A stretch of 64,000 nt of DNA from the NCBI RefSeq assembly GCF_900113015.1, contig NZ_FONV01000022.1, forward strand, positions 1 through 64,000. Direction: 5' to 3'. The DNA comes from Actinoplanes philippinensis (GTDB lineage: Bacteria > Actinomycetota > Actinomycetes > Mycobacteriales > Micromonosporaceae). Positions within the stretch are counted from its first letter, which is position 1. Each line of letters opens with the position of its first letter. A model generated the notes under the pieces. It saw only the letters and a program-made list of their open reading frames with translations, was not told where the DNA came from and made no database searches. Of this stretch, positions 41,528 through 47,104 are shown in pieces. The position numbers and the translations under genes were made by a program.

Positions 41528-42328
41528 TCAGGGGTCACGGCCCTGCCATGTGGTCACGCAGACCTCGTTGCCCTCGCGGTCTGCCAGGACCCAGAAGGAC
41601 GGGGCCCACTCGTCGGAGACCAGGTGGCCACCGGCCGCGAGAGCGGCGGCCATGCGGCCCGCTGCCTCATCGTGGGGGACGCTGATGTCGAAGTGGATGC
41701 GGTTGCGCTGTGGGCGCGGCTCGGTCATTCGCTGGAACCAGACAGTCGGCCCTTGGCGCAGCGGGTCGACGAGCCGGTCCTCGGGGCCGTGCTTTCCTGG
41801 CTCGTCGGTGTATCCGAGGACCGCCTTCCAGAACGGCCGCACCGACGGGATGTCGAGCGCGTCGATGGCGACCTCCCACTCCTGCACCGAGCGGTTCCCG
41901 CCTGCCCCCGCCGTGTCCGCGGCGGACCGGGTCGTCGGCGGACCGCGGAGATCCAGCGGGTCCGAGGGGTCGGCTTCGGGTTGCGGCGCCGCGCCCGACG
42001 GCGACGAGGCGGAGAGCCGGCCGGGGGTCGTTCTCCGGCCGAGCGTCCGGACGGCTGCGGTGATCAGGTGTGCCAGTTCGGTGTCGCGGGCGGTCACTCC
42101 GCCGAAGGCGCGCGGGCGGAGCGTCAGAATGACGTGGGTCGGCCGGAGATCCAGGCGAAGGTGTTCGTCCGCGCCGACACCGCAGGCCCCGACAGCGCCG
42201 GCGGCCACCGCGGCGGCCTCGGCCAGCGAGTCGACCTGCACCGACGTTCGCAGGGTGCCCAGCACGAAACGCCAGCCCTGGTCGCCGACGGCCGCGGAGG
42301 CTTCGGTGCGGCTCAGAAACCGTTCCAT
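41528..42328 (-). CDS. Pterin-dehydratase-like / VOC (glyoxalase) fusion protein
   Basis: 266 residues. Residues ~1-98 resemble pterin-4a-carbinolamine dehydratase (GWRFVLGTLRTSVQVDSLAEAAAVAAGAVGACGV, then HLRLDLRPTHVILTLRPRAFGGVTARDTELAHLI), but the usual catalytic HHP is not seen. A ~45-residue Pro/Ser linker leads to a VOC domain (EWEVAIDALDIPSVRPFWKAVLGY, RNRIHFDISVPHDEA, FWVLADREGNEVCVTTW) with likely metal ligands His and Glu. The fusion occurs in other actinobacteria; the substrate is unknown. Confidence 0.82.
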   Translation of the reverse strand: MERFLSRTEASAAVGDQGWRFVLGTLRTSVQVDSLAEAAAVAAGAVGACGVGADEHLRLDLRPTHVILTLRPRAFGGVTARDTELAHLITAAVRTLGRRTTPGRLSASSPSGAAPQPEADPSDPLDLRGPPTTRSAADTAGAGGNRSVQEWEVAIDALDIPSVRPFWKAVLGYTDEPGKHGPEDRLVDPLRQGPTVWFQRMTEPRPQRNRIHFDISVPHDEAAGRMAAALAAGGHLVSDEWAPSFWVLADREGNEVCVTTWQGRDP

Positions 42329-42557
42329 GCCGCCAGGCTCTCAGATCGGCCGCCTCCGTGTCGCGGAGCCCGGTGCGGCGGGATCGAGCCCAACGCGCCA
42401 CCGGACGGGTGACCGCTGCCGCGGAGGCACATCGATGCTGAGACACCGCTGAGGGCGGGGTCCGCTGCCGTTGTCGGGAGGGCTCGGCGGTCGGGGACAC
42501 TTGGTCGGGCAAGTCGAGGGCTCGGCCACGGGAGTGGGCGGCGGGGGAGGGTCTGGG

Positions 42558-43901
42558 TTGTTGGTGTTCTTCGCAGTCGTTCTGGTGGGGATCGGTTTGA
42601 TCCACTACTACCTGTGGAAACGGCTGGTTCGGGATCCACTGCGGCCGGGGTGGGGACGGCGCGCCGGGACGGTGGTGGCCGTGCTGCTCTGCGTCCTCGC
42701 TCCGCTGACGATGATCGGGGTGCGCGCGGGCTACTTCACCTGGCTCTCGTGGCCCGGCTATCTGTGGATCGCCGTGATGTTCTACCTGCTCGTGGTGCTG
42801 GCGGTGCTGGAGATCCCGCGACTGCTGCTGATGCGTCTGTGGGCGGGCTCCCGGCGTACCACCGTGAAGTCACCGACCGCGACCGGCGACGTGCCCGCAC
42901 CGGTCCGCATCGCTGATGAGACGCGGCCCGGCACGAGTGAGCCGCAGCCGGTCGGCGTGGTGAGCCTGAGCGCGGACGGCGCCGGGCAGGCGGCAGGCGC
43001 CGGGACGGTGCCGACGGGGACGGCGGCCGGGGCGCAGACGGCGGCGGGCACGACGGACGACGCCGCGGAGGAGCGGCGCGGGATCGAGCGACGGCTGCTC
43101 CTGGCGCGTGGCACCGCGATCTTCGCGGGGCTGACGGCCGCGGGCATCACCGGCTACGGGGTGAAGACGGCGACCGGCGCGCCGCAGATCGATCGGGTTC
43201 AGCTTCCGATGGCCAAGCTTCCCCGGGCGATGGACGGCACCCGGCTCGCGGTGGTGTCGGACATCCACATCGGCCCGCTGACCGGGGTCAACCACGCGCA
43301 GCGCATCGTCCAGGTGATCAACTCGGTGAACGCGGACCTGGTCTGCGTCGTCGGTGACCTGGTCGACGGCAGTGTGGCCGAGCTGGGCCGGTTCGCCGCG
43401 CCGCTGGCCGGCATCGAGTCGCGGCACGGGGCGTTCTTCGTGACCGGCAACCACGAGTACTACTCGGGCGCCGAGGAGTGGGTCGACGAGGTGGCCCGGC
43501 TGGGTATCCGGCCGCTGCGCAACGAGCGGGTGGCGATCAACGGGCTGGACCTCGCCGGTGTGAACGATCTGAGCGGCGAGGACCACGGCGACGCCCCCGA
43601 TTTCGCCCGCGCGCTGGGCGACCGGGACACCGCCCGTCCCGTCGTGTTGATGGCCCACCAGCCGGTGGCCGTCGTCGAGGCCGCTCCCTACGGGGTGGAT
43701 CTGCAGGTCTCGGGTCACACGCACGGTGGTCAGATGGCCCCGTTCAACCTGCTCGTCAAACTCCAGCAGCCGGTAGTCTCCGGCTTCGGGGAGGTCGACG
43801 GCGTGCCGGTCTACGTGACCAACGGCGCGGGTTTCTGGGGGCCACCGGTGCGCGTGGGCGCACCCCCGCAGGTCACGGTCATCGAATTGCGTGTGGCATA
43901 A
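42558..43901 (+). CDS. YkuE-type membrane metallophosphoesterase
   Basis: 447 residues. The start is a TTG at 42558 with GGGGGAGG 7 bp upstream. Three N-terminal membrane helices (about 1-85), a ~75-residue cytosolic low-complexity linker and another helix (about 178-200) precede the phosphoesterase domain. Its metal motifs are VVSDIHIGPL, VVGDLVDGSV, VTGNHEYYSG, LMAHQP and SGHTHGGQ. It resembles YkuE-like phosphodiesterases acting at the membrane on an unknown substrate; the domain probably faces outward. Confidence 0.9.
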   Translation: MLVFFAVVLVGIGLIHYYLWKRLVRDPLRPGWGRRAGTVVAVLLCVLAPLTMIGVRAGYFTWLSWPGYLWIAVMFYLLVVLAVLEIPRLLLMRLWAGSRRTTVKSPTATGDVPAPVRIADETRPGTSEPQPVGVVSLSADGAGQAAGAGTVPTGTAAGAQTAAGTTDDAAEERRGIERRLLLARGTAIFAGLTAAGITGYGVKTATGAPQIDRVQLPMAKLPRAMDGTRLAVVSDIHIGPLTGVNHAQRIVQVINSVNADLVCVVGDLVDGSVAELGRFAAPLAGIESRHGAFFVTGNHEYYSGAEEWVDEVARLGIRPLRNERVAINGLDLAGVNDLSGEDHGDAPDFARALGDRDTARPVVLMAHQPVAVVEAAPYGVDLQVSGHTHGGQMAPFNLLVKLQQPVVSGFGEVDGVPVYVTNGAGFWGPPVRVGAPPQVTVIELRVA

Positions 43902-43975
43902 CCCATCAAGATCGGTAAGTGTGTTTGAGCGTGGCGAAGCATGGCGAGACCGACGGCCGTGACAGGATGCGGGGT

Positions 43976-46900
43976 GTGGAGGTCAGCACGGATACATATG
44001 TCGCGGACCTGCACATTCATTCGCGCTACTCACGGGCCTGCAGTCGTGATCTGACGCTGCCCAACCTGGCGTGGTGGGCGCGTCGTAAGGGCATCGCCCT
44101 GCTGGGCACCGGCGACTTCACCCATCCGGCGTGGTTCGAGCATCTCCGGGAGAGCTTGGAGCCGGCCGAGCCGGGCCTGTTCCGGCTCGCCGACGAGAAG
44201 CCGGTCACCAAGCGTCTTCCCGGTTCGCTGCGTGGCACCCTGCCGGCCCGGTTCATGTTGAGCGTGGAGATCTCGACGATCTACAAGCGCGACGACAAGA
44301 CCCGTAAGGTGCACCACCTGCTCTACGCTCCCGACTTCGCGTCGGTGGAGAAGATCAACACCGCGCTGTCCCGGATCGGGAACCTGACCGCGGACGGCCG
44401 GCCGATCCTGGGGCTCGACTCGCGCAACCTCCTGGAGATCACTCTGGAGGCGGGCGGCTATCTGGTCCCGGCGCACATCTGGACGCCGTGGTTCTCCGCC
44501 CTCGGCTCGAAGTCCGGGTTCGACGCGATCGCCGACTGCTACGCCGACCTGGCCGACCACATCACCGCGGTGGAGACCGGCCTCTCGTCGGACCCGGAGA
44601 TGAACTGGCGCGTCTCCAGCCTGGACCGGTATCGCCTGGTCTCGAACTCGGACGCGCACTCCCCGGCCGCTCTGGCCCGCGAGGCCACCCTGTTCACCGG
44701 CACCCCGGACTACTTCGCGGTGCGCGACGGCCTCGGCCTGGCCGGGACGCTGGAGTTCTTCCCGGAGGAGGGCAAGTATCACGCCGACGGCCACCGGGCC
44801 TGCGGGGTGAACTGGGAGCCGGCGAAGACCCGCGCGGCCAACGGCCGTTGCCCGGAGTGCGGCCGCCCGTTGACGGTCGGTGTGCTGAGCCGGGTCGAGG
44901 ACCTCGCCGACCGGCCGGTCGGCTTCCACCGGGACGACCACGTCGAGCACCTGATCCAGCTGCACGAGATCCTCGGCGAGATCCACGGTGTCGGCCCGAA
45001 GTCGAAGACGGTCGAGTCGCAGATGAACCATCTGGTGGCGACGCTCGGCGCGGAGCTGGACATCCTGCGGAAGGTGCCGGTCGAGGAGATCGGCAAGGCC
45101 GGCGGCGACGAACTGCGGGAGGCGATCACCCGGCTGCGGCGCGGCGACGTGCGGCGGGTGCCGGGTTACGACGGCGAGTATGGCGTGATCACCCTCTTCG
45201 ACCCGGGTGAGCTGCGCAACCGCAACAGCGCGCCGCAGATGGAGACGCTCTTCGACTTCCCCGCGGCAGACGCTCTCGCGGCGGCGCCGAAGCCCAGGGC
45301 GGAGCCGGTGAAGGAGAAGGCCAAGGCGAGACCGGTGAAGGAGAAGCCGGCCCCGCCGCCGCTGGCTCCGCCGCCGAGCCCGCACGAGCCGTTCGAGCCG
45401 ATGCTCGCCGGGATGGAGGAGGTCGGCACCGGCCTGCTGGACCGCCTCGACGCGATGCAGCGGGTGGCCGCGTCGGCGCCGGGCGGGCCGCTGCTGATCG
45501 TGGCGGGGCCGGGCACCGGCAAGACGCGGACTTTGACGCACCGTATGGCGTACCTCTGTGCCGAGCTGGGTGTCTTCCCGGAGCGCTGTCTGGCGATCAC
45601 GTTCACCCGGCGGGCCGCCGCCGAGCTGAAGGAGCGTCTGGAAGCGCTGCTCGGGGACGTGGCCGAGGACATCACCGTCGGTACGTTCCACTCGCTGGGC
45701 CTGACCGTGCTGAAGGAGAACGCGAAGGCCGCCGGGCTGGGTTCGGGCTGGCGTATCGCCGACGAGCACGAGCAGACGCAGGCCCGGGAGCAGGCCGGGG
45801 ACGACGACGCGGCGTACCGGAAGCTGCTGCGCCAGCAGGACCTGGTGGATCTGGACGATCTGATCAGCGTGCCGGTGTCGTTGCTGAGCGAGGATCCGGC
45901 GCTCGTCGAGAAGTACCGCAGGCGCTGGCAGTGGATCTTCGTGGACGAGTATCAGGACGTCGACGAGCTGCAGTATCAGCTGCTGCGCCTGCTCAGCCCG
46001 CCGGACGGCAACCTCTGCGCGATCGGTGACCCGGACCAGGCGATCTACTCGTTCCGTGGCGCCGACGTGCAGTACTTCCTCCGGTTCAACACCGACTTCG
46101 TGGACGCCCGGCTGGTCCGGCTGACCCGTAACTACCGGTCGTCGGCGCCGATCCTGGCCGCCGCGGTGCAGGCGATCGCGCCGACCACCCTGGTCAGCGG
46201 CCGCCGCCTGGACCCGGCCCGGCTGGATCCGGAGGCCTCGCTGGTCGGGCGATATGCGGCCCGCAGCGTCGCCGACGAGGCCGACTTCGTGGTCCGCACG
46301 ATCGACGAGCTGGTCGGCGGCCTGTCCCACCGGTCGCTCGACTCGGGCCGGGTCGACTCCCGTGCCGCGGCCGTCGGCAACCTGTCGTTCTCGGACATCG
46401 CGGTGCTCTACCGCACCGACGCGCAATCCGGCCCGATCGTCGACGCGCTGTCCCGCGCCGGCATCCCGGTGCAGAAGCGCTCGCACAACCGGCTGCGGGA
46501 CCGTCGCGGTGTCGCCGAGATCGCCCGGGAGCTGCGGCATGCCGGTGGCGCGAGCGGACCGTTGCGGGTCCGGGTGAAGGCGGCCGGTCAGGCGCTGGCC
46601 CAGCGTTATGCGGCGCCGACCCTGGACGGGGATCAGCCGGCCCCCGAGGATGTCCGGCTCGCCGCCGAGCTGCTGCTGCCGCTGGCCGACCGGACCGGCG
46701 ACGATCTGCCGCTCTTCCTCCAGCAGCTGGCGACCGGCGCCGAGGTGGACGCCCTGGACCCGCGGGCCGAGGCGGTCAACCTGCTCACCCTGCACGCTGC
46801 CAAGGGCCTGGAGTTCCCGGTGGTGTTCCTGGTCGGGTGCGAGGACGGGCTGCTGCCGCTGCGCTGGCCCGGTTCGACGCCGTCGGAGGAGGAGGTCGCC

Positions 46901-47104
46901 GAGGAGCGGCGGCTGTTCTTCGTCGGCCTGACCAGGGCCCAGGATCGGCTGTACGTCAGCAGCTCGGCGAAGCGGTTCCGGCACGGCAGCGAGCGGGAGC
47001 AGTCACCCACCCCGTTCCTCGACGTGATCGATTCCGGACTGTTCGAGAAACTGGGCGAGGCCGCCCCCGCCCGCCCGAAGGATCGCCAGCTCAGGCTGCT
47101 GTGA
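43976..47104 (+). CDS. Endonuclease Q-UvrD/Rep helicase fusion
   Basis: 1042 residues from GTG 43976. Residues ~5-420 are a PHP-like EndoQ domain: ADLHIHSRYSRACS, LLGTGDFTHP, VPAHIWTPWF, SNSDAHSP and zinc-finger cysteines 276, 292 and 295. EndoQ cuts DNA 5' of deaminated bases and abasic sites. After a Lys/Pro-rich hinge, residues ~480-1035 are a UvrD/Rep helicase: GPGTGKTRTLTHR (Lys516), FVDEYQDVDELQ, RLTRNYRSS, LTLHAAKGLEFPVVFLVG and FFVGLTRAQDRLYV. QMETLF (from Gln421) and the terminal QLRLL resemble sliding-clamp motifs. Confidence 0.93.
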   Translation: MEVSTDTYVADLHIHSRYSRACSRDLTLPNLAWWARRKGIALLGTGDFTHPAWFEHLRESLEPAEPGLFRLADEKPVTKRLPGSLRGTLPARFMLSVEISTIYKRDDKTRKVHHLLYAPDFASVEKINTALSRIGNLTADGRPILGLDSRNLLEITLEAGGYLVPAHIWTPWFSALGSKSGFDAIADCYADLADHITAVETGLSSDPEMNWRVSSLDRYRLVSNSDAHSPAALAREATLFTGTPDYFAVRDGLGLAGTLEFFPEEGKYHADGHRACGVNWEPAKTRAANGRCPECGRPLTVGVLSRVEDLADRPVGFHRDDHVEHLIQLHEILGEIHGVGPKSKTVESQMNHLVATLGAELDILRKVPVEEIGKAGGDELREAITRLRRGDVRRVPGYDGEYGVITLFDPGELRNRNSAPQMETLFDFPAADALAAAPKPRAEPVKEKAKARPVKEKPAPPPLAPPPSPHEPFEPMLAGMEEVGTGLLDRLDAMQRVAASAPGGPLLIVAGPGTGKTRTLTHRMAYLCAELGVFPERCLAITFTRRAAAELKERLEALLGDVAEDITVGTFHSLGLTVLKENAKAAGLGSGWRIADEHEQTQAREQAGDDDAAYRKLLRQQDLVDLDDLISVPVSLLSEDPALVEKYRRRWQWIFVDEYQDVDELQYQLLRLLSPPDGNLCAIGDPDQAIYSFRGADVQYFLRFNTDFVDARLVRLTRNYRSSAPILAAAVQAIAPTTLVSGRRLDPARLDPEASLVGRYAARSVADEADFVVRTIDELVGGLSHRSLDSGRVDSRAAAVGNLSFSDIAVLYRTDAQSGPIVDALSRAGIPVQKRSHNRLRDRRGVAEIARELRHAGGASGPLRVRVKAAGQALAQRYAAPTLDGDQPAPEDVRLAAELLLPLADRTGDDLPLFLQQLATGAEVDALDPRAEAVNLLTLHAAKGLEFPVVFLVGCEDGLLPLRWPGSTPSEEEVAEERRLFFVGLTRAQDRLYVSSSAKRFRHGSEREQSPTPFLDVIDSGLFEKLGEAAPARPKDRQLRLL

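Follow-up and report, generated by a model that had tools for sequence, protein, structure and literature searches.

We found that a gene of Actinoplanes philippinensis joins an EndoQ-type nuclease to a UvrD/PcrA-type helicase in one protein, and we regard it as rather likely that this protein is a lesion-directed repair enzyme that nicks and unwinds DNA while tethered to the sliding clamp. The stretch analyzed, hereafter the window, comprises 64,000 nucleotides (positions 1-64,000 of the forward strand of contig NZ_FONV01000022.1, assembly GCF_900113015.1). The fusion gene occupies positions 43976..47104 of the plus strand, as do all its parts given below, and forms a single open frame of 1042 amino acids that runs from a GTG at 43976 to the stop codon at 47102-47104. 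This GTG is preceded by an AGGA at a distance of 8 nt, and a second in-frame GTG is located further upstream at 43919. The frame encodes an EndoQ domain (residues 8-416, 43997..45223), a Lys/Pro-rich linker (residues 418-484, 45227..45427), a superfamily 1A (SF1A) motor of UvrD/PcrA type (residues 485-1028, 45428..47059) and a tail that ends in QLRLL (residues 1038-1042, 47087..47101). A preliminary description, made from the sequence, had proposed an EndoQ-type PHP domain with its zinc finger, a Lys/Pro linker and a UvrD motor in one 1042-residue protein, and this layout was borne out by the reading frame, phmmer and Pfam.

The fusion is real and not a one-off. A contig scan yielded 79 distinct loci from the best 80 of 564 relatives, and 78 of these hold one fusion frame; the frame of L055 is broken, and two of the 78 (L068 and L090) run off their contig. 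The recurrence of the same architecture in these loci and in independent genome samples rules out a chance fusion or an assembly error. The loci are titled Actinomycetota, Binatia, Acidobacteriota, Opitutae, Planctomycetota, Myxococcales, Alphaproteobacteria, Poribacteria, Endomicrobium, Achromatium and Gastranaerophilales, many of them being contigs of metagenome-assembled genomes whose titles may be wrong. The survey of fusion frequency that the preliminary description had called for was run with the EndoQ half, and the fusion recurs across many bacterial phyla. In the window's own family, 172 of 200 genomes were matched; among the matches listed, which are part of the 172, four rows lie in frames of less than 600 amino acids and the others in frames of at least 979. 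Matches in the own phylum were found in 11 of 396 genomes, four of them weak (E 9e-5 to 7e-4), while the seven strong ones comprise six fusions, one of which is cut by the contig end, and one stand-alone EndoQ. Four further phyla were sampled around a centre genome that itself bears the fusion and is included in the counts. EndoQ was present in 10 of 140 genomes in the phylum of a Polyangium genome (eight frames of more than 1000 amino acids, two short), in 20 of 299 in that of a Rhodospirillales genome (ten of more than 1000 amino acids, eight short, two fragments), in 21 of 149 in that of a Blastopirellula genome (ten fused, ten short, one unclear) and in 40 of 146 in that of a Gastranaerophilales genome (31 fused in frame, four with the helicase in another frame, five without a downstream helicase).

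The EndoQ half was matched to PfuEndoQ (5zb8) by phmmer over residues 10-407 (E 8.4e-43). For the analysis of structure we used a model built from a 44-row alignment, in which the identity of the remaining rows to the protein of the window ranges from 47 to 95% (mean pLDDT 82.4, pTM 0.55). In this model, 375 residues of the EndoQ half align with 5zb8 at Z 38.0, rmsd 3.0 and 29% identity, and sequence and structure matches together reveal the EndoQ fold of PHP domain, zinc ribbon and helical C-terminal domain. The TIGR00375 match scored 144.1 bits, which is below the curated cut-off of 326.6. All six PfuEndoQ residues that we checked, E76, H84, H139, G169, S171 and D193, are kept as E98, H113, H167, G202, S204 and D226, respectively, and all six are invariant in the 44-row alignment. 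According to the review PMC8307549, E76, H84 and H139 of PfuEndoQ bind the catalytic zinc and G169 and S171 line the base pocket; the corresponding zinc ligands of the fusion (E98, H113 and H167 in the residue map) are encoded at 44267..44476. The position of D193 reads N in 7k30 in the phmmer-derived alignment. The EndoQ nick is reported to leave a 3'-OH and a 5'-phosphate (PMC4357722). As judged from the kept residues, the EndoQ domain of the fusion probably nicks DNA next to damaged bases.

The domain is thus like the stand-alone EndoQ proteins of Pyrococcus, Thermococcus and Bacillus (COG1379, TIGR00375) in its PHP domain, zinc ribbon, C-terminal domain and the checked active-site and base-pocket residues. 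It differs in that TkoEndoQ comprises 421 amino acids (PMC4357722), whereas the fusion adds a linker and a helicase, and in that one predicted zinc ligand is a histidine. The first zinc-finger cysteine of PfuEndoQ (C249) is replaced by H273 in the motif H273-x2-C276 ... C292-x2-C295 (44792..44860), all four residues of which are invariant in the 44-row alignment, and it is plausible that they form a zinc ligand set different from that of a four-cysteine finger. This replacement, together with the 29% identity to PfuEndoQ and with conserved residues that differ from it, such as H50 (N45 in PfuEndoQ), would also suit an EndoQ domain that has drifted towards another lesion or structure, the protein then being, for example, a mismatch- or ribonucleotide-directed nickase-helicase. 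However, the conservation of six out of six checked residues speaks against such a drift, and we consider it improbable.

The helicase half matched Pfam PF00580 (E 2.4e-65) and PF13361 (E 1.4e-31) as well as PcrA (1pjr, E 1.4e-81), and 508 residues of the model align with Deinococcus radiodurans UvrD (4c30) at Z 44.8 and rmsd 2.6. The motor motifs AGPGTGKT, DEYQD, GDPDQAIYxFRGAD, NYRS, TLHAAKGLEF and VGxTRA are kept and near-invariant in the 44-row alignment. In Walker A (AGPGTGKT, residues 510-517, 45503..45526) seven of eight positions, all but T514, are invariant, and so are D657, E658, Q660 and D661 of Walker B (DEYQD, residues 657-661, 45944..45958). The preliminary description had spoken of a complete UvrD helicase. 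This holds for the motor motifs, all of which are there, but not for the subdomains: full-length 1B and 2B are lacking, the 1B region comprising 10 amino acids compared to 55 in the alignment to PcrA 1pjr and the 2B region 54 compared to 128, and the 74 amino acids that follow PcrA residue 650 are replaced by a 15-amino-acid tail. Compared to UvrD, the motor is smaller by about 110 residues overall. The fusion missed the equivalog cut-offs of PcrA, UvrD and Rep, reaching 373.7 bits for PcrA where 911.2 are required, and with scores so far below the cut-offs it is best described as a UvrD-like helicase that is none of these three itself. It shares motor motifs and three-dimensional fold with these SF1A helicases and differs from them in the shortened 1B and 2B, the missing C-terminal part of PcrA, the clamp-like tail and the N-terminal nuclease. 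By analogy with UvrD, for which 3'-5' polarity is reported (PMC7776575), the motor would unwind in the 3'-5' direction.

Structural matches to the model also included AddAB, RecBCD and AdnAB, which likewise combine a UvrD-type motor and a nuclease in one enzyme. These are double-strand-end exonucleases with PD-(D/E)xK nucleases, whereas the fusion carries an N-terminal PHP endonuclease that is predicted to be lesion-specific.

A further feature that the fusion has in common with known clamp-associated enzymes is its C-terminus. QLRLL fits the published clamp-binding consensus Q-phi-x-[L/M]-[F/L] or Q-phi-x-[L/M]-x-[F/L], phi being Leu, Ile, Val or Ala (PMC13254535), and forms the last five residues of a tail (residues 1029-1042) with pLDDT below 50, that is, a flexible terminal site. 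Within an otherwise variable tail, the 44-row alignment shows two invariant residues, Q1038 and L1041. We compared two sets of tails with 494 neighbour frames of at least 200 amino acids, which were called mechanically and some of which may be spurious. Set A consists of 77 complete tails, namely the window and the 78 contig-scan fusions minus L068 and L090, with L055 dropped; the C-terminal tail was not among the six patterns used in the contig scan. Set U consists of 37 helicase-bearing frames from genomes found via EndoQ alone: 30 fused frames, L167, L147, in which EndoQ is cut by the contig end, and five separate helicases. L167 was counted as fused from the genome search, its EndoQ match being missing in the later frame listing, and L148 and L082 are the same gene. 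The strict motif Q[LMI].L[FLIM] occurs within the last 15 amino acids of 72 of the 77 tails in set A and 23 of the 37 in set U compared to none of the 494 controls, the means for shuffled tails being 0.2 of 77 and 0.1 of 37. With a looser pattern for the last 15 residues the counts were 75/77, 35/37 and 2/494, and with Q..[LMF] in the last 12 residues they were 75/77, 37/37 and 24/494, respectively. The two exceptions in set A hold QLSLL and QLTLF slightly further inward, and two UvrD paralogues of the window's own genome end otherwise. The proposal that QLRLL resembles a sliding-clamp motif was therefore corroborated at the level of sequence, by the fit to the consensus and by its conservation compared to the controls, and the tail probably binds the beta sliding clamp.

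The second peptide that had been put forward as a clamp motif, QMETLF (residues 421-426, 45236..45253), did not hold up. It misses the published consensus, the region fits it in 0/77 fusions of set A and in 1/27 of set U (counting those whose region could be anchored), and the glutamine is not general. Mainly the LF is conserved among homologues: 76 of 77 in set A hold [LMF]F, and 40 of 77 also a Q two or three residues earlier, compared to 18/27 and 8/27 in set U. The LF conservation in set A is inflated, since QMETLFDF was one of the search patterns. Clamp-like motifs at the C-termini of stand-alone bacterial EndoQs, PIP boxes at those of archaeal forms and a link of archaeal EndoQ to PCNA are reported in PMC4858679, whereas in the fusion the clamp-like motif stands at the helicase end. 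Six of 29 complete tails of short EndoQs listed end in QISLF, QLSLL, QKELF, QMRMF, QMRLF or QMKLF. QMETLF may thus be a relic of the tail motif of a stand-alone EndoQ, left behind after a helicase with a motif of its own was added.

A quick tree of 93 EndoQ rows requires eight changes between fused or split and stand-alone forms, which suggests that the fusion is old and that the helicase was lost repeatedly later on. In this tree L146 is mislabeled as stand-alone and is in fact a fragment cut by the contig end, and L238, L140 and L153 form long branches. Separate EndoQ and helicase genes can stay adjacent and overlapping, with the helicase still ending in QLKLF, QLSLF or QLTLF (L143 and L213-L216). 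For instance, L143 (genome G688, Polyangium phylum) holds overlapping neighbours, an EndoQ ending in QISLFGGAA and a helicase ending in QLKLF. We also observed five related genomes (L208-L212) that keep EndoQ and have no helicase downstream. L238 (genome G1055, Blastopirellula phylum) is a highly diverged EndoQ-UvrD-like fusion of 1110 amino acids with 26% identity that ends in QLQLF and possibly represents an independent fusion event.

In the Gastranaerophilales phylum (loci L188-L213 and L242-L255), a run of nine or ten A was found at the boundary of EndoQ and linker in 25 of the 40 EndoQ-bearing genomes. The helicase is fused in frame in 21 of these 25 and lies in another frame in four; the 15 genomes without the run comprise ten fusions and five without a helicase. 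The counts given here for this phylum come from related genomes and thus cannot be treated as independent. Each of the 23 loci that encode Val-Lys-Lys at the boundary reads GTAAAAAAA, and two more hold A9 in another register, compared to just four other runs of at least nine A over 168,786 nt of this strand. In the first 19 loci, GTA makes up 22% of codons at invariant Val columns of the EndoQ part and is uniform in 0/15, invariant Lys columns are all AAA in 1/16, and the commonest base averages 53% at 76 fourfold sites. Stop codons close both other frames 10-32 codons past the anchor in the 14 A9 gene copies, which stem from 11 genomes, three having been retrieved twice. Of the four helicases that lie out of frame, two lack any ATG, GTG or TTG ahead of Walker A, and two have one. 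These data fit a candidate slippage site that would give EndoQ alone as well as the fusion, or phase variation of the DNA run. Transcriptional slippage has been described for Thermus dnaX (PMC5009743), and the Gastranaerophilales form resembles dnaX tau/gamma in having a slippery run within the gene and near stops in both other frames, which would yield a short and a long product. It differs in that slippage is here predicted from the sequence only and that the long product adds a helicase. As a tentative extension, whose chances we put slightly short of even, the fusion could be a widespread bacterial glycosylase-free excision machine that unites a lesion nickase, a motor and a tether to the clamp in a single chain. 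The proportion of free nickase to nickase joined to the motor would be tunable, in Gastranaerophilales via dnaX-like slippage on a selected A9/A10 run located exactly at the domain boundary.

Taken together, the EndoQ active site, the UvrD-type motor and the conserved C-terminal motif are the parts of the proposed nick-then-unwind, clamp-tethered repair that found support in the sequence; the QMETLF tether and the link to a cytosine-rich genome did not. As judged from the kept residues, the EndoQ domain would flip out a deaminated or abasic nucleotide and cut on its 5' side, leaving a 3'-OH and a 5'-phosphate. The 3'-5' motor would then use the nick to load onto the intact strand and, given UvrD polarity, peel the lesion strand away in the same direction as a polymerase extending the 3'-OH. 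The QLxL[L/F] peptide on its floppy tail would tether the enzyme to the beta sliding clamp and thereby keep it close to freshly replicated DNA as well as to the polymerase and ligase by which the patch is completed. We infer both activities, the clamp binding and the coupling of the two steps. Alternatively, the protein may carry two repair tools without a handover, EndoQ starting excision and the helicase performing other clamp-linked work such as gap or fork processing, so that the fusion mainly brings both to the clamp. The long disordered linker and the retention of EndoQ where the helicase is lost or lies in a separate frame would be in line with this, as would RecB of RecBCD, a UvrD-family nuclease-helicase that is reported to bind the clamp (PMC13254535) and in this respect resembles the fusion. 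However, the fused order and the motif on the helicase tail are retained over large distances, which suggests joint use, and we therefore regard two tools without a handover as unlikely, if less so than a drifted EndoQ domain.

Several observations weigh against a coupled, clamp-tethered repair enzyme. The model does not fix the arrangement of the EndoQ and helicase halves (pTM 0.55), because the pLDDT of the linker and of the tail is below 50. Exact fits to the published clamp consensus are only partial (45/77 tails in set A, 23/37 in set U and 1/494 controls), in set A partly because 25 tails end in QLRLI. Many EndoQs stand alone, and in the Gastranaerophilales phylum a helicase next to EndoQ is missing from five of the 40 genomes that bear EndoQ, so that EndoQ does not require the motor. 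The EndoQ tree is unrooted and weakly resolved, with 32 of 89 inner branches well supported. Genes of the uracil-DNA glycosylase (UDG) superfamily are present in 19 of 20 fusion genomes, where uracil repair is already covered; a replacement of UDG was rejected on this ground, and the fusion would add to uracil excision instead. A LexA-like site was found upstream in just one of 78 loci and not in the window, which leaves SOS control unsupported. Finally, none of the 14 largest neighbour clusters listed (frames of at least 200 amino acids) represents a partner gene that is conserved from phylum to phylum: apart from the fusion and one antisense frame, one cluster reaches two loci outside the Micromonosporaceae (L064 and L066) and the others none.

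Two further proposals were considered. The preliminary description had seen the enzyme as fitting a genome rich in cytosine; G+C content ranges from 30 to 75% in the 19 homologous loci checked, and an answer to high G+C or cytosine content was therefore rejected. The second proposal is a role in defence, in which EndoQ would cut phage DNA that contains uracil or other unusual bases and the helicase would unwind it for degradation. A role of bacterial EndoQ in antiviral defence is considered in the review PMC8307549, and the PADLOC models of GajB, which is UvrD-like, match the helicase part. However, the best GajB score (238.5 bits) lies below that of the PcrA model (373.7 bits), so that the match reflects a general likeness to UvrD. 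EndoQ is also common in the family (172/200 genomes), and a clamp motif would be better suited to replication-linked repair. Furthermore, the sole match in the plasmid collection at E ≤1e-30 covers helicase residues only and no phage record matched the EndoQ part, which leaves an origin from mobile elements unsupported as well. We thus consider defence very improbable. An assignment to Gabija was rejected because of the weaker GajB than PcrA match, GajA having been sought only among four proteins.

With regard to the neighbourhood in the window, a metallophosphoesterase gene (42471-43901, plus strand) lies directly upstream of the fusion gene. Among frames of at least 200 amino acids, a homologue is found near the fusion in 31 of the 79 contig-scan loci, all Micromonosporaceae by title, and in the 12 positions listed it is upstream on the same strand. 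Further upstream, a frame of 266 amino acids on the minus strand (41528-42328) combines a Glyoxalase_6 domain with a weak, below-cut-off match to pterin-4a-carbinolamine dehydratase. Neither a tRNA nor an RNA family reaching the gathering score was found in the window.

According to PMC4357722 and PMC4858679, EndoQ is mainly archaeal, with homologues in only few bacterial genera. The preliminary description had allowed for the fusion being long characterised; no description of it was found in open-licence full texts, which do not cover most subscription papers, the one on EndoQ of Bacillus pumilus among them, so that a prior mention is possible. The mainly archaeal picture contrasts with the occurrence of EndoQ across many phyla of bacteria, in one chain with a motor and with a clamp motif. 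The slippage-like site in the Gastranaerophilales phylum provides a natural experiment that compares EndoQ with and without its helicase. Overall, the fusion suggests what may follow the EndoQ nick in bacteria, and Actinoplanes and Micromonospora, which can be cultured, offer single proteins with which to test this.

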